In this document: positions 32,157 to 39,779 of the stretch, one piece after another
How positions within the stretch are numbered: the first letter of the stretch is position 1
Layout of the letters: every line of letters starts with the position of its first letter
Origin: Quatrionicoccus australiensis
Lineage (GTDB): Bacteria > Pseudomonadota > Gammaproteobacteria > Burkholderiales > Rhodocyclaceae
DNA: 64,000 bases
Direction: 5' to 3'
Assembly: GCF_020510425.1 (NCBI RefSeq)
Contig: NZ_JAHBAH010000001.1
Location: 4,104,472-4,168,471 of the forward strand
Made by a program: the position numbers and the translations under genes
The notes under the pieces: model-generated
The model's input: the letters and a program-made list of their open reading frames with translations, nothing else
What the model was told of the DNA's origin: nothing
Database searches by the model: none

Positions 32157-33101
32157 TTGAAAAACGTTCTCGTCGTCAATTATTCGCAAACCGGGCAACT
32201 TGCCGACGTTACCGCACAGGTGATCGCCCCGCTTGCAGCGGCCGGTCACAAGGTGCATCTGGAAACCCTGGTTCCGGAAACGCCGTTTCCCTGGCCGTGG
32301 TCGCTGGTCGATTTCGTCGATGTCTTTGCCGAGTCCGTGCAGCTCGATGCGCCGCCGTTAAAACCGCTCAGCATTGCGCCGGACGCCGAGTTCGACCTGG
32401 TCATTCTGACCTACCAGGTCTGGTACCTGTCCCCCGCCCTGCCCATCGTTGCTTTCCTCAATAGCCCCCAGGGCAGGCATCTGCTCAAGGGCAAACCGGT
32501 GGTGACGCTGGTCGCCTGCCGCAATATGTGGCTGACCGCACAAAAGACCATGCAGCGCCTGATTGGCGAAGCCGGCGGTGAATTACGCGATCACATCGCC
32601 TTCACCGACAACGCGCATGCCCTGGCCACCCTGATCACCACGCCGCGCTGGGTGCTGACCGGCAAACGCGATAGCTTCCTCGGCCTGCCGCCGGCCGGCG
32701 TATCCCGGGACGATGTGCGTGGCGCCAGCCGTTTCGGGCACGCGCTGGCCGACGCACTCGATCACGATGGCGAAAAGACGGGAAAGCCGATGTTGACCGG
32801 TCTGCGTGCCGCCCCGGTCAATCCGCGCCTGGCAATCAGCGAAAAGGCCGGCCACCGCGCCTTCCGCGTCTGGTCAAAAATCATTCGCAGCTGCGGCAAG
32901 CGCGGGCAATGGCGGCGGCGTCCCATTCTCGCGATATTCACCATTTACCTGATTGCCATGGTGTTTACCGTTGTTCCACTCAGCCTGTTGCTACAATGGC
33001 TGCTTTCCCCCCTGCTCAAGCCCCGGCTGGCGCGGTTGCGCGCCGAACTCGAACAGCCATCCGGCGCGCAGGAATTCAACCTGAACAAATATGAACAGTA
33101 G
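32157..33101 (+). CDS. darA: DarA-like flavodoxin-fold protein of a dialkylresorcinol-type pathway
   Basis: No ATG precedes the conserved start. A TTG at 32157 gives KNVLVVNYSQTGQLADV, a flavodoxin FMN fingerprint (residues 2-17); a TTG at 32118 is an alternative. The 314-residue product keeps further flavodoxin-like segments (DLVILTYQVWYLSPALP, KPVVTLVACRNMW) and ends with one membrane helix (about ILAIFTIYLIAMVFTVVPLSLLLQWLL in two stretches). Homologues are named dialkylresorcinol-condensing enzyme DarA and are paired with DarB ketosynthases, as here; DarA is thought to aromatise the ring. It opens a nine-gene operon and overlaps darB by 11 bases. Confidence 0.75.
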   Translation: MKNVLVVNYSQTGQLADVTAQVIAPLAAAGHKVHLETLVPETPFPWPWSLVDFVDVFAESVQLDAPPLKPLSIAPDAEFDLVILTYQVWYLSPALPIVAFLNSPQGRHLLKGKPVVTLVACRNMWLTAQKTMQRLIGEAGGELRDHIAFTDNAHALATLITTPRWVLTGKRDSFLGLPPAGVSRDDVRGASRFGHALADALDHDGEKTGKPMLTGLRAAPVNPRLAISEKAGHRAFRVWSKIIRSCGKRGQWRRRPILAIFTIYLIAMVFTVVPLSLLLQWLLSPLLKPRLARLRAELEQPSGAQEFNLNKYEQ

Positions 33102-34242
33102 CGGCAAGGTCTATATCACCCGTAGTTCGGCCTTTTTGCCGAATGCGCCGGTCGATAACGAGAATATCGAGAACGTGCTCGGCATGGTTGGCGGCCGGCC
33201 TTCACGCGCCCGCCGCATCGTGTTGCGCAACAACGGCATCCGCGAACGTTACTACGCAATCGATCCAGAGACCGGCGAAACGACGCATAACAATGCCCAA
33301 CTGACAGCCGCCGCCATTCGCGGCCTGAATGTCGGCGATGCCATCGATTGCCTGTCCACCGGCACAACCATGCCCGACCAGTTGATGCCCAACCATGGCG
33401 TCATGGTGCATGGCGAACTGGGCATTTCGCCCTGTGAAGTCGTGTCGACCGCCGGCATCTGTCTGTCCGGCCTGACCGCATTGAAATATGCCTACATGGC
33501 CGTGCTCTGTGGCCAGGCAAAAAACGCCGTCGCCACCGGTTCGGAACAGGCTTCCGCCGTGCTGCATGCCCGCAATTTCGCCAGCGAGTCGGAACATCGC
33601 ATTGGCGAACTGGAAAGCAACCCGGAGATCGCCTTCGAGAAGGACTTCCTGCGCTGGATGCTCTCCGACGGGGCCGGCGCTTTCCTGCTTCAGGATCAGC
33701 CGGCGCCCACCGGGTTGTCGCTGCGTATCGACTGGATCGACATCCTGTCGCAGGCCGGCGCCATGGAAACCTGCATGTACGCCGGCGGCGAGAAGCAGGA
33801 AGATGGCACGTTGCGCGGCTGGAAAACCTATCCAGCCAACGAGTGGGGCCGGCGCTCGCTGTTTGCCATCAAGCAGGACGTCCGGCTGCTCAACGAGAAC
33901 ATCGTGCGCCAGACGATAGGCAAGATCCTCGAAAAATCGATGGCGACGCGCGAACTCAAGGCGGATGCGGTCGACTGGTTCCTGCCGCACATGTCTTCCG
34001 AGTACTTCCGCCAACCACTTGCCGAACACATGGCCGCGCTCGGCTTCCCGATTCCCCAGGAAAAGTGGTTTACCAACCTGCACACCAAGGGCAACACCGG
34101 TGCCGCCTCGATCTACATCATGATCGACGAGTTACTGAAGAGCGGCCGCCTGCAACATGGTGACCGCCTGCTCTGTTTCATCCCCGAAAGCGGCCGCTTC
34201 ACCGGCTCGCTGATGCACCTGACGGCGGTCGACCATGCTTGA
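33091..34242 (+). CDS. darB: DarB-like KAS III ketosynthase (383 aa)
   Basis: A FabH-type thiolase-fold enzyme with an intact Cys124-His300-Asn335 triad: STAGICLSGLTALKYAY, WFLPHMSSEYF and NLHTKGNTGAASIYIM. DarB enzymes join two beta-ketoacyl units into a cyclohexanedione that DarA then aromatises to a dialkylresorcinol. The N-terminal VYITRSSAFLPNAPVDNENIE is typical of this subgroup rather than housekeeping FabH. It overlaps both neighbours, indicating coupled translation. The substrate chain lengths cannot be read from sequence. Confidence 0.82.
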   Translation: MNSSGKVYITRSSAFLPNAPVDNENIENVLGMVGGRPSRARRIVLRNNGIRERYYAIDPETGETTHNNAQLTAAAIRGLNVGDAIDCLSTGTTMPDQLMPNHGVMVHGELGISPCEVVSTAGICLSGLTALKYAYMAVLCGQAKNAVATGSEQASAVLHARNFASESEHRIGELESNPEIAFEKDFLRWMLSDGAGAFLLQDQPAPTGLSLRIDWIDILSQAGAMETCMYAGGEKQEDGTLRGWKTYPANEWGRRSLFAIKQDVRLLNENIVRQTIGKILEKSMATRELKADAVDWFLPHMSSEYFRQPLAEHMAALGFPIPQEKWFTNLHTKGNTGAASIYIMIDELLKSGRLQHGDRLLCFIPESGRFTGSLMHLTAVDHA

Positions 34243-38029: not shown

Positions 38030-39108
38030 GCCGTCCGGTCTATATCGCCGAGCGTGCCCTGCTCTGCGCCGCCGGCAATTCGCCGTCGGCGGTTGCCAGC
38101 GCACTGTGGGCTGGCGAATGCATGCCGGGCCGCCACCAGCTCGGCGAACGCGAGTTTCCCTATTTCGCGCTGAACTTGCCGGAAACCGGCTGGCTGGCCC
38201 GTGCCGAACGATCAGTCCGTGCCCTGGCTGAACAACTTGGCCAACTCGACGAAAAAACGCCGCTCTTCGTTGCTTCCTCATCCTTCCAGATGGGCCAATT
38301 CGAAGCGGCCGGTTCGCCCTTCGAGCTGCCGCCCGCCTGCGCCGCCTTCAGCCGGCAACTGGCCGACTGGCAGGGCCTGAGCGGTCCCTGCTACAGCTTC
38401 TCGACCGCCTGCACCTCGGGTTTCTCGGCGCTCGACGCGGCGCGCAGCCTGATCGCCGCCGGCCTGATCGACGACGCCGTCGTGCTCGGCGTCGAACTGG
38501 CCAACAACTCGACCCTGGCCGGCTTTGCCGCGATGGAACTGCTTTCGCGCAGCACCGCCCGCCCCTTCGACGTTCGTCGCGACGGCCTGGTGCTCGGCGA
38601 AGCCGTCGCCGCCGTGCGCCTGAGCGCCCAACCCGCCACCTGGCGCATCGCCGGCCTGCGCACCGGCCTCGACGCCTATTCGACGACCGGACCCGATCCG
38701 GATGGCGGCCCGATTGCCGCCCTGACGGTCGACTGCCTGCAGGAGGCAAAAATGCCGGCCGGCGACATCGAGCTGGTCAAGCTGCAGGCGGCCGGCTCGC
38801 CCGGCACTGATCTCGCCGAGGCCAACGCGCTGCGGCGGGTTTTCCGCGAACGCATGCCGCCGCTCCTCTCGCTCAAGCCTTACCTCGGCCACACCCTGGG
38901 CGCCAGCGGCATCGCCGAACTGGTCGCGCTGCTTGCCTGCCTCGATGCCGAGCAGATCCCGGCCACCGCCGGCTTTGCCGAATCCGACCCGGAAATCGCC
39001 CTGAAACCGACCGTGGTGCGCAGCAATACCTATATCGAACGCGCCCTCTTGCAACTGATCGGTTTTGGCGGCGGCCTGGCCAGCCTGATTGTCGAGCGTC
39101 GCCAATGA
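38026..39108 (+). CDS. KAS I/II-type ketosynthase with altered catalytic triad (360 aa)
   Basis: A thiolase-fold ketosynthase with the nucleophile Cys129 in FSTACTSGFSALDAAR and the second histidine His289 in KPYLGHTLGASG. Where FabF-type enzymes have the first histidine (HGTGT), this protein reads LQAAGS with Gln254. The overall length is shorter than FabF (about 410). It may work with the following truncated partner, much like a KS-alpha with a chain-length factor, or catalyse only acyl transfer. It overlaps the ACP and the next gene by four bases each. Confidence 0.85.
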   Translation: MSRPVYIAERALLCAAGNSPSAVASALWAGECMPGRHQLGEREFPYFALNLPETGWLARAERSVRALAEQLGQLDEKTPLFVASSSFQMGQFEAAGSPFELPPACAAFSRQLADWQGLSGPCYSFSTACTSGFSALDAARSLIAAGLIDDAVVLGVELANNSTLAGFAAMELLSRSTARPFDVRRDGLVLGEAVAAVRLSAQPATWRIAGLRTGLDAYSTTGPDPDGGPIAALTVDCLQEAKMPAGDIELVKLQAAGSPGTDLAEANALRRVFRERMPPLLSLKPYLGHTLGASGIAELVALLACLDAEQIPATAGFAESDPEIALKPTVVRSNTYIERALLQLIGFGGGLASLIVERRQ

Positions 39109-39779
39109 CTTATCTCGACACCGTCATCACCCAGGAATTTACTGCGGCCGAATTGCCCGCCGCCGTGCGTGCGGCGCTCGGCAAGCCGCTGCGCCGCGCC
39201 GCCACCCTGACCCAACTCGCCGTAGTCGGTGCCCTGGCCTGCCTGCCGGCCGAGCGCCGGACTTTGCCGACTGCCCTGCTCTGGCAGACGCGCAGCGGTC
39301 CACGCGCTGAAACGCTAGCTTTGCTCGAAGAAGTCTGCAACGGCACTGCCGAGCCGATGCCTTACGACTTTCTCGCCACCCAGCCGGCGATTGCCGCGGC
39401 GCAACTCAAACCTTTCCTGCCCGGCCTGCACTCGGCGACCTGCCTGCCGCTGGCCGACGCAACGATGGCCAACTGGTCGCTGCTGCTCAGCCTCGCCGAT
39501 CATTGGCTGAATAGCGGGCGCTACGCCCAGGTGCTGTGCGCCCAGCTTGACCACGCCGACGACCTGGCCAGCGGCCACTGGCTGGCCCTGAGCGCCGCCC
39601 CTCTTGAAAATTCGCTGGCCAGCCTCCACCTGTCGGAAGTCACGCCCGGCGAAGCGCTTGCCGACGCCAGCGATTTCCCGGCCTGCCTCGACCACTGGCT
39701 CGCCGCCGAGAGCTCTGGCCACCTGTATTTGCAGTCCGCCGCCAGCCGGAAGCTGGCGGTAGAATTCGCCCGCATCTAA
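39105..39779 (+). CDS. Truncated beta-ketoacyl synthase-like partner protein (224 aa)
   Basis: The sequence resembles the N-terminal ketoacyl-synthase-2 family (PF13723 type): PYDFLATQPAIAAAQLKPFLPGLHSATCLPLADATMANWSLLL, then LNSGRYAQVLCAQLDHADD. The catalytic Cys motif and the C-terminal half of a ketosynthase are absent; the protein ends where the first thiolase repeat would finish. Such proteins accompany ketosynthases in aryl polyene clusters as probable heterodimer partners. It is the last gene of the overlapping operon. Confidence 0.7.
   Translation: MTYLDTVITQEFTAAELPAAVRAALGKPLRRAATLTQLAVVGALACLPAERRTLPTALLWQTRSGPRAETLALLEEVCNGTAEPMPYDFLATQPAIAAAQLKPFLPGLHSATCLPLADATMANWSLLLSLADHWLNSGRYAQVLCAQLDHADDLASGHWLALSAAPLENSLASLHLSEVTPGEALADASDFPACLDHWLAAESSGHLYLQSAASRKLAVEFARI

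Follow-up and report, generated by a model that had tools for sequence, protein, structure and literature searches.

The nine tightly packed genes at positions 32157-39779 of a 64,000-nucleotide stretch of the Quatrionicoccus australiensis genome (contig NZ_JAHBAH010000001.1, positions 4,104,472 to 4,168,471; hereafter the window) very probably represent the dar operon of a pigment pathway of the arcuflavin type, i.e. its resorcinol-making half, as judged from their predicted proteins and gene order. What this pathway makes is probably a dialkylresorcinol-polyene ester rather than a free lipid for export. An earlier note on this DNA had proposed a candidate new lipid biosynthetic system, which we reject because the corresponding cluster of Azoarcus BH72 is already published (PMC3949708, 2014; this and the other papers cited here are used in excerpt). 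By predicted gene content the window operon is of the published pigment operon type and not a new system.

The BH72 dar cluster (azo0283-0293) is given in Table 1 of that paper in the order darA, B, D, E, F, G, H, I, C, J, K, with D annotated as a conserved hypothetical protein, E as a BtrH-like peptidase, F as an ATP-binding cassette (ABC) ATPase, G as Phd, H as PilT, I as a permease, C as an acyl carrier protein (ACP) and J as a ketosynthase (PMC3949708). All nine window genes have counterparts in this cluster by annotation, in identical order apart from G and H, the Phd and PilT-domain genes that separate the ABC ATPase from the permease in BH72 and are both missing from the window. We use the gene names darD and darE of Schoner et al. 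(PMC3949708); the NCBIfam names DarG and DarH denote the same two proteins. The Azoarcus dialkylresorcinol (DAR) proteins yield a 2,5-dialkylresorcinol in E. coli (PMC3949708, citing Fuchs 2013), and the yellow pigment arcuflavin consists of that resorcinol and a xanthomonadin-like polyene, an ester between them being predicted from mass spectra (PMC3949708). The BH72 insertion mutants described in the excerpted text carry their insertions in arcK and arcT of the polyene set rather than in dar genes, and both gene sets are also reported from Dechloromonas aromatica RCB, Variovorax paradoxus and Sideroxydans lithotrophicus (PMC3949708). Thus the novelty claimed by the earlier note for the nine-gene set fails that note's own test, the BH72 set having been described together with its product arcuflavin, and the BtrH-like protein and dedicated exporter that it took as distinguishing are normal parts of the published dar cluster (PMC3949708).

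The nine in-frame open reading frames (ORFs) all lie on the plus strand and are joined by overlaps of 11, 8, 1, 1, 4, 4 and 4 bases and a single 3-base gap, which bears out the earlier reading of same-strand genes spaced by at most three bases. The divergent pyrG starts 160 bases from the operon start, and the operon has a G+C content of 65% vs 60% for the window; scanning for promoters and terminators yielded no more matches than chance expects. Among 28 related loci found using the BtrH-like protein, the nearest being from Dechloromonas, Azonexus and Rhodocyclales, 19 keep the nine-gene set in order and strand, a conservation far beyond chance. The full set is present in Dechloromonas hortensis MA-1 and in D. 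denitrificans ATCC BAA-841. The incomplete loci L012, L018, L019, L023 and L025 are interrupted by contig ends, gene 9 is not shown in L026, and L027 and L028 have their dar genes in two blocks of opposite orientation, A-B-D-E and F-I-C-J. The same division is seen in L043, L044, L045, L046 and L047. A DUF4160 ORF (11026-11283) follows darE in L003 in place of darF, after which the locus ends; together with the Phd/PilT genes of BH72 (PMC3949708), this ORF raises the possibility that small inserted gene pairs recur in the operon.

The other half of such a pathway would be supplied by a xanthomonadin-like polyene block at 2056928-2079164 of the contig that holds the window. Pfam scanning of 20 ORFs of this block identified an AMP-ligase, an ACP, two ketosynthases, a chain-length-factor-like protein (PF13723), a ketoreductase, a FabA-like dehydratase, a lipid A-type acyltransferase and another acyltransferase, LolA_3, MMPL and MipA proteins, a polysaccharide deacetylase, a methyltransferase, a Na/H exchanger, a glycosyltransferase, a tryptophan-halogenase-type flavoprotein and a sub-threshold alpha/beta hydrolase, one ORF being without match; a chorismatase (PF21168) lies at C1:2077255-2077644. 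Counterparts by annotation are present for 17 of the 24 arc genes (arcA, B, C, D, E, G, H, J, K, M, N, P, Q, R, S, T and V), including those of ArcB and ArcT, the proteins for 3-hydroxybenzoate formation and activation (PMC3949708). The halogenase-type flavoprotein (G000:C1:2077825-2079165) may be compared with arcA of BH72, a strain whose arcuflavin is reported as non-brominated despite that gene (PMC3949708).

The two halves also co-occur across genomes, as seen in samples of 60 relatives and of 398 genomes of the phylum, both of which include the genome studied here; locus and genome sets overlap (L001 and G016 lie on contigs of equal length), so that not all counts are independent. DarH exceeded its cut-off in 19 of the 60 relatives and the chorismatase was found in 30, distributed as 18/19 DarH-positive vs 12/41 other genomes (Fisher p 1.3e-6, kinship ignored). 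In the phylum sample, scored with up to four candidates per genome, DarB and DarH passed their cut-offs in an identical set of 13 genomes; six further genomes had DarB-like matches under the cut-off only, none of them among the DarH matches, and three had weak DarH matches only. The polyene chain-length-factor marker PF13723 occurred in 91 of the 398, that is, in 13/13 dar genomes vs 78/385 others. In G058, a genome of the same order (loci L041 and L042), the dar genes are located inside the polyene cluster, and polyene-type genes flank the dar genes in L037, L047 and L049.

Several observations weigh against this assignment. The dar operon and the polyene block of the present genome are about 2.06 Mb apart, although the BH72 polyene genes likewise lie elsewhere, unlinked to dar (PMC3949708); none of the 20 ORFs scanned at the block was identified as arcF, I, L, O, U, W or X; and the comparison with BH72 was made by annotation and order, not by sequence. 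The link to the chorismatase is weaker within the genus (17/18 vs 11/18, p 0.02, kinship ignored), the gene being present in 12 of the 41 DarH-negative relatives and missing from the DarH-positive G009 (89% complete), and the p value of the PF13723 association (2.3e-9) also ignores kinship between genomes.

At the level of single proteins (Table 1), the labels DarB-like, BtrH-like, ABC ATPase, ABC permease, ACP and ketosynthase proposed earlier are borne out by Pfam and NCBIfam models. DarB scored 513 against NCBI's narrower DarB model, under its cut-off of 550. Its catalytic residues, which the earlier note had rightly read as an intact KAS III-like triad, each have an identical partner in the alignment with StlD, a ketosynthase of solved structure (5gk0, 512 bits), a relative presumably from Photorhabdus that is part of a stilbene pathway, unlike DarB here. 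The DarA label agrees with gene position and published order, whereas the flavodoxin assignment found no counterpart in any Pfam or NCBIfam family even at E 10; neither for DarA nor for DarE was a usable PDB relative found. Matches that begin at residue 1 of darA were obtained in 24 related loci, of which 20 retain the TTG start, 3 have ATG and 1 has ATC; inspection by eye revealed no clear ribosome-binding site upstream of the start. Some bases upstream of this TTG (window 32127-32157) are also conserved among related loci.

Gene 3 had been called helix-turn-helix (HTH)-like, a description for which only one homologue gave an HTH match, itself sub-threshold; the window protein had none and belongs instead to DarG_fam of NCBIfam. 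Designed-repeat PDB matches of this protein were set aside, no stretch passing alone. DarE is a member of the BtrH-related acyltransferase family DarH and is predicted from its sequence to transfer acyl groups from an ACP, the activity described for BtrH as an ACP:aminoglycoside acyltransferase (PMC10318531). Its Cys11, His120, His124 and Asp142 are invariant in 148/148 aligned near relatives, and no gene for it was present on any of the matched viral contigs.

Table 1. Genes of the predicted dar operon, with window coordinates and supporting features
Gene and product	Position	Strand	Evidence
darA (resorcinol aromatase)	32157..33101	+	TTG start; place, published order, conserved start; C-terminal hydrophobic stretch (residues 255-284)
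darB, StlD/DarB family ketosynthase	33091..34242	+	NF005293 613 bits (NCBIfam, cut-off 450); Cys124-His300-Asn335
darD (NCBIfam DarG family)	34235..34630	+	NF053536 169 bits, cut-off 70
darE (NCBIfam DarH), BtrH-like acyltransferase	34630..35616	+	NF053550 478 bits, cut-off 300; BtrH_N + DUF4872 (Pfam)
darF, ABC transporter ATPase	35616..36527	+	PF00005; Walker A, signature and Walker B motifs
darI, ABC-2 type permease	36531..37763	+	PF12698; six hydrophobic stretches
darC, acyl carrier protein	37760..38029	+	PF00550 21.4 bits, cut-off 20.8; DSL Ser43
darJ, KAS I/II-type ketosynthase	38026..39108	+	PF00109 + PF02801; Cys129, Gln, His289
darK, short protein, perhaps truncated chain-length-factor-like DarJ partner	39105..39779	+	weak 7f28_A match; loose alignment

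From what is known for homologous proteins, DarB would condense two fatty-acid-derived chains to an alkylcyclohexanedione, which DarA would aromatise to a 2,5-dialkylresorcinol. The polyene block would produce the aryl polyene, with the chorismatase delivering 3-hydroxybenzoate and the AMP-ligase, ketosynthases and chain-length factor, ketoreductase and dehydratase acting on the way to the finished chain. Both moieties would then be joined by an ester, as mass spectra led the authors to propose for the pigment of Azoarcus, and transport could rely on the MMPL, LolA and MipA proteins encoded in the polyene block, with DarF/DarI perhaps taking part. The earlier idea of a DarA/DarB lipid, possibly conjugated by the BtrH-like enzyme, is well in line with this evidence, the difference being that the partner of the lipid is probably an aryl polyene, whose genes form a second locus beyond the window and hence out of that note's sight.

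The operon's ketosynthase departs from its family. DarJ, 94% identical to a ketosynthase recorded for Quatrionicoccus australiensis, carries Cys-Gln-His in place of the Cys-His-His triad of elongating KAS I/II enzymes, and QAAGS at the place of the HGTGT motif. We aligned 158 rows, comprising the 120 nearest of 1214 proteins found, which lean toward the kin of the window, and 38 others. The 120 nearest showed Gln in 117 and His in 3; the remaining 38 showed Gln in 26 (the window, 22 of 24 related loci, L039, L040 and L041) and His in 12 (the two polyene ketosynthases of the same genome, L027, L028 and eight phylum-sample rows). The best match of L049, one of these eight rows, groups with polyene ketosynthases in the tree and is probably one of them rather than a DarJ. 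Several dar-operon lineages thus retain His, and the Gln change is therefore not needed for the pathway as such. On the DarJ tree the label has to change three times or more, and two of the changes look like reversions to His (P0119; P0113 with P0125), which speaks against a single clean event; the deep branching is uncertain owing to long branches. A single base can separate a Gln from a His codon, a small step that, together with these changes and reversions, weakens a functional reading of the Gln.

Free of the conserved HGTGT motif are also the KS0 of trans-acyltransferase (trans-AT) polyketide synthases, which are non-elongating (PMC5772238). The resemblance lies in the motif missing from both and is a likeness, not membership, KS0 being domains in large synthases and DarJ a free-standing protein. 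The Cys-Gln-His arrangement hints by analogy at a non-elongating, chain-transferring enzyme, which we treat as a lead and not as a result; no published description of it was found in the open-licence papers searched.

The ninth gene product, DarK, had been regarded as a truncated ketosynthase. A weak match among PDB profiles (E 0.021) to 7f28_A, judged by its name and its partner chain to be ApeC, and a loose alignment with chain-length-factor-like proteins may point to some relationship of this kind. No match to Pfam (PF13723 included) or any other family appeared even at E 10, and hhalign against the chain-length factor of the same genome found nothing, so that we do not accept DarK as a clear truncated ketosynthase.

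It is tempting to speculate that DarJ, as a non-elongating Cys-Gln-His enzyme, and DarK load the polyene on DarC, from which DarE would pass the chain to a resorcinol hydroxyl and form the ester; we consider this sequence of events possible, though rather doubtful. The only enzyme proposed for the joining step in the excerpts at hand is the ligase-like FlxW of the flexirubin pathway (PMC3949708, PMC3992019). Flexirubin clusters of Chitinophaga pinensis and Flavobacterium johnsoniae resemble the present system in combining darA/darB with a polyene pathway and in esterifying the resorcinol to an aryl polyene, and an F. johnsoniae darB mutant is flexirubin-negative; their polyene starts from tyrosine via an ammonia-lyase (PMC3992019), whereas the block of the present genome has a chorismatase. 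The chances are about even that the pigment is of arcuflavin type with its ester formed by a ligase-like protein or by an acyltransferase of the polyene block, DarE doing something else. The FlxW proposal points that way (PMC3992019), as do the acyltransferases ApeD and ApeJ, which in E. coli are proposed to attach the aryl polyenes to their lipid anchor (PMC8253772), and the acyltransferases found in the polyene block itself, while the identical distribution of DarH and DarB over 13 of the 398 genomes ties DarE to the resorcinol, and BtrH is described as transferring acyl groups from an ACP to aminoglycosides (PMC10318531).

Two further explanations part from the arcuflavin-type ester altogether. 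A free dialkylresorcinol or cyclohexanedione lipid, made and exported by the operon next to a separate xanthomonadin-like pigment of the polyene locus, would suit an operon with its own ABC transporter and the formation of resorcinol by DAR proteins expressed alone (PMC3949708). We hold it to be very improbable, given that free resorcinol was not found in the Azoarcus extracts described there, the resorcinol being bound in the pigment (PMC3949708), that DarB, DarH and the polyene marker co-occur, and that G058, which has DarB and DarH, gave no permease match at E 0.001 in the genome search and seems, from its sequence, to do without a DarI-like permease. Equally slight is the chance that DarE attaches a further moiety, for instance an amine or an amino acid, to give a conjugate beyond arcuflavin: BtrH itself does act on an amine (PMC10318531), but the Azoarcus cluster has a BtrH-like gene and its pigment, C41H52O4, is accounted for by resorcinol and polyene (PMC3949708).

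The recognition of the window genes as an arcuflavin-type dar operon clears a false lead, this gene set being a published pigment operon type that is already partly named by NCBI models, with NCBIfam names for three of the nine products. The remaining interest lies in the step that links the resorcinol to the polyene and in the altered ketosynthase. If DarJ, DarK, DarC and DarE did act together as outlined above, they would constitute the module that joins the two halves of arcuflavin-type pigments, and chain transfer of the KS0 kind would have a type II counterpart.

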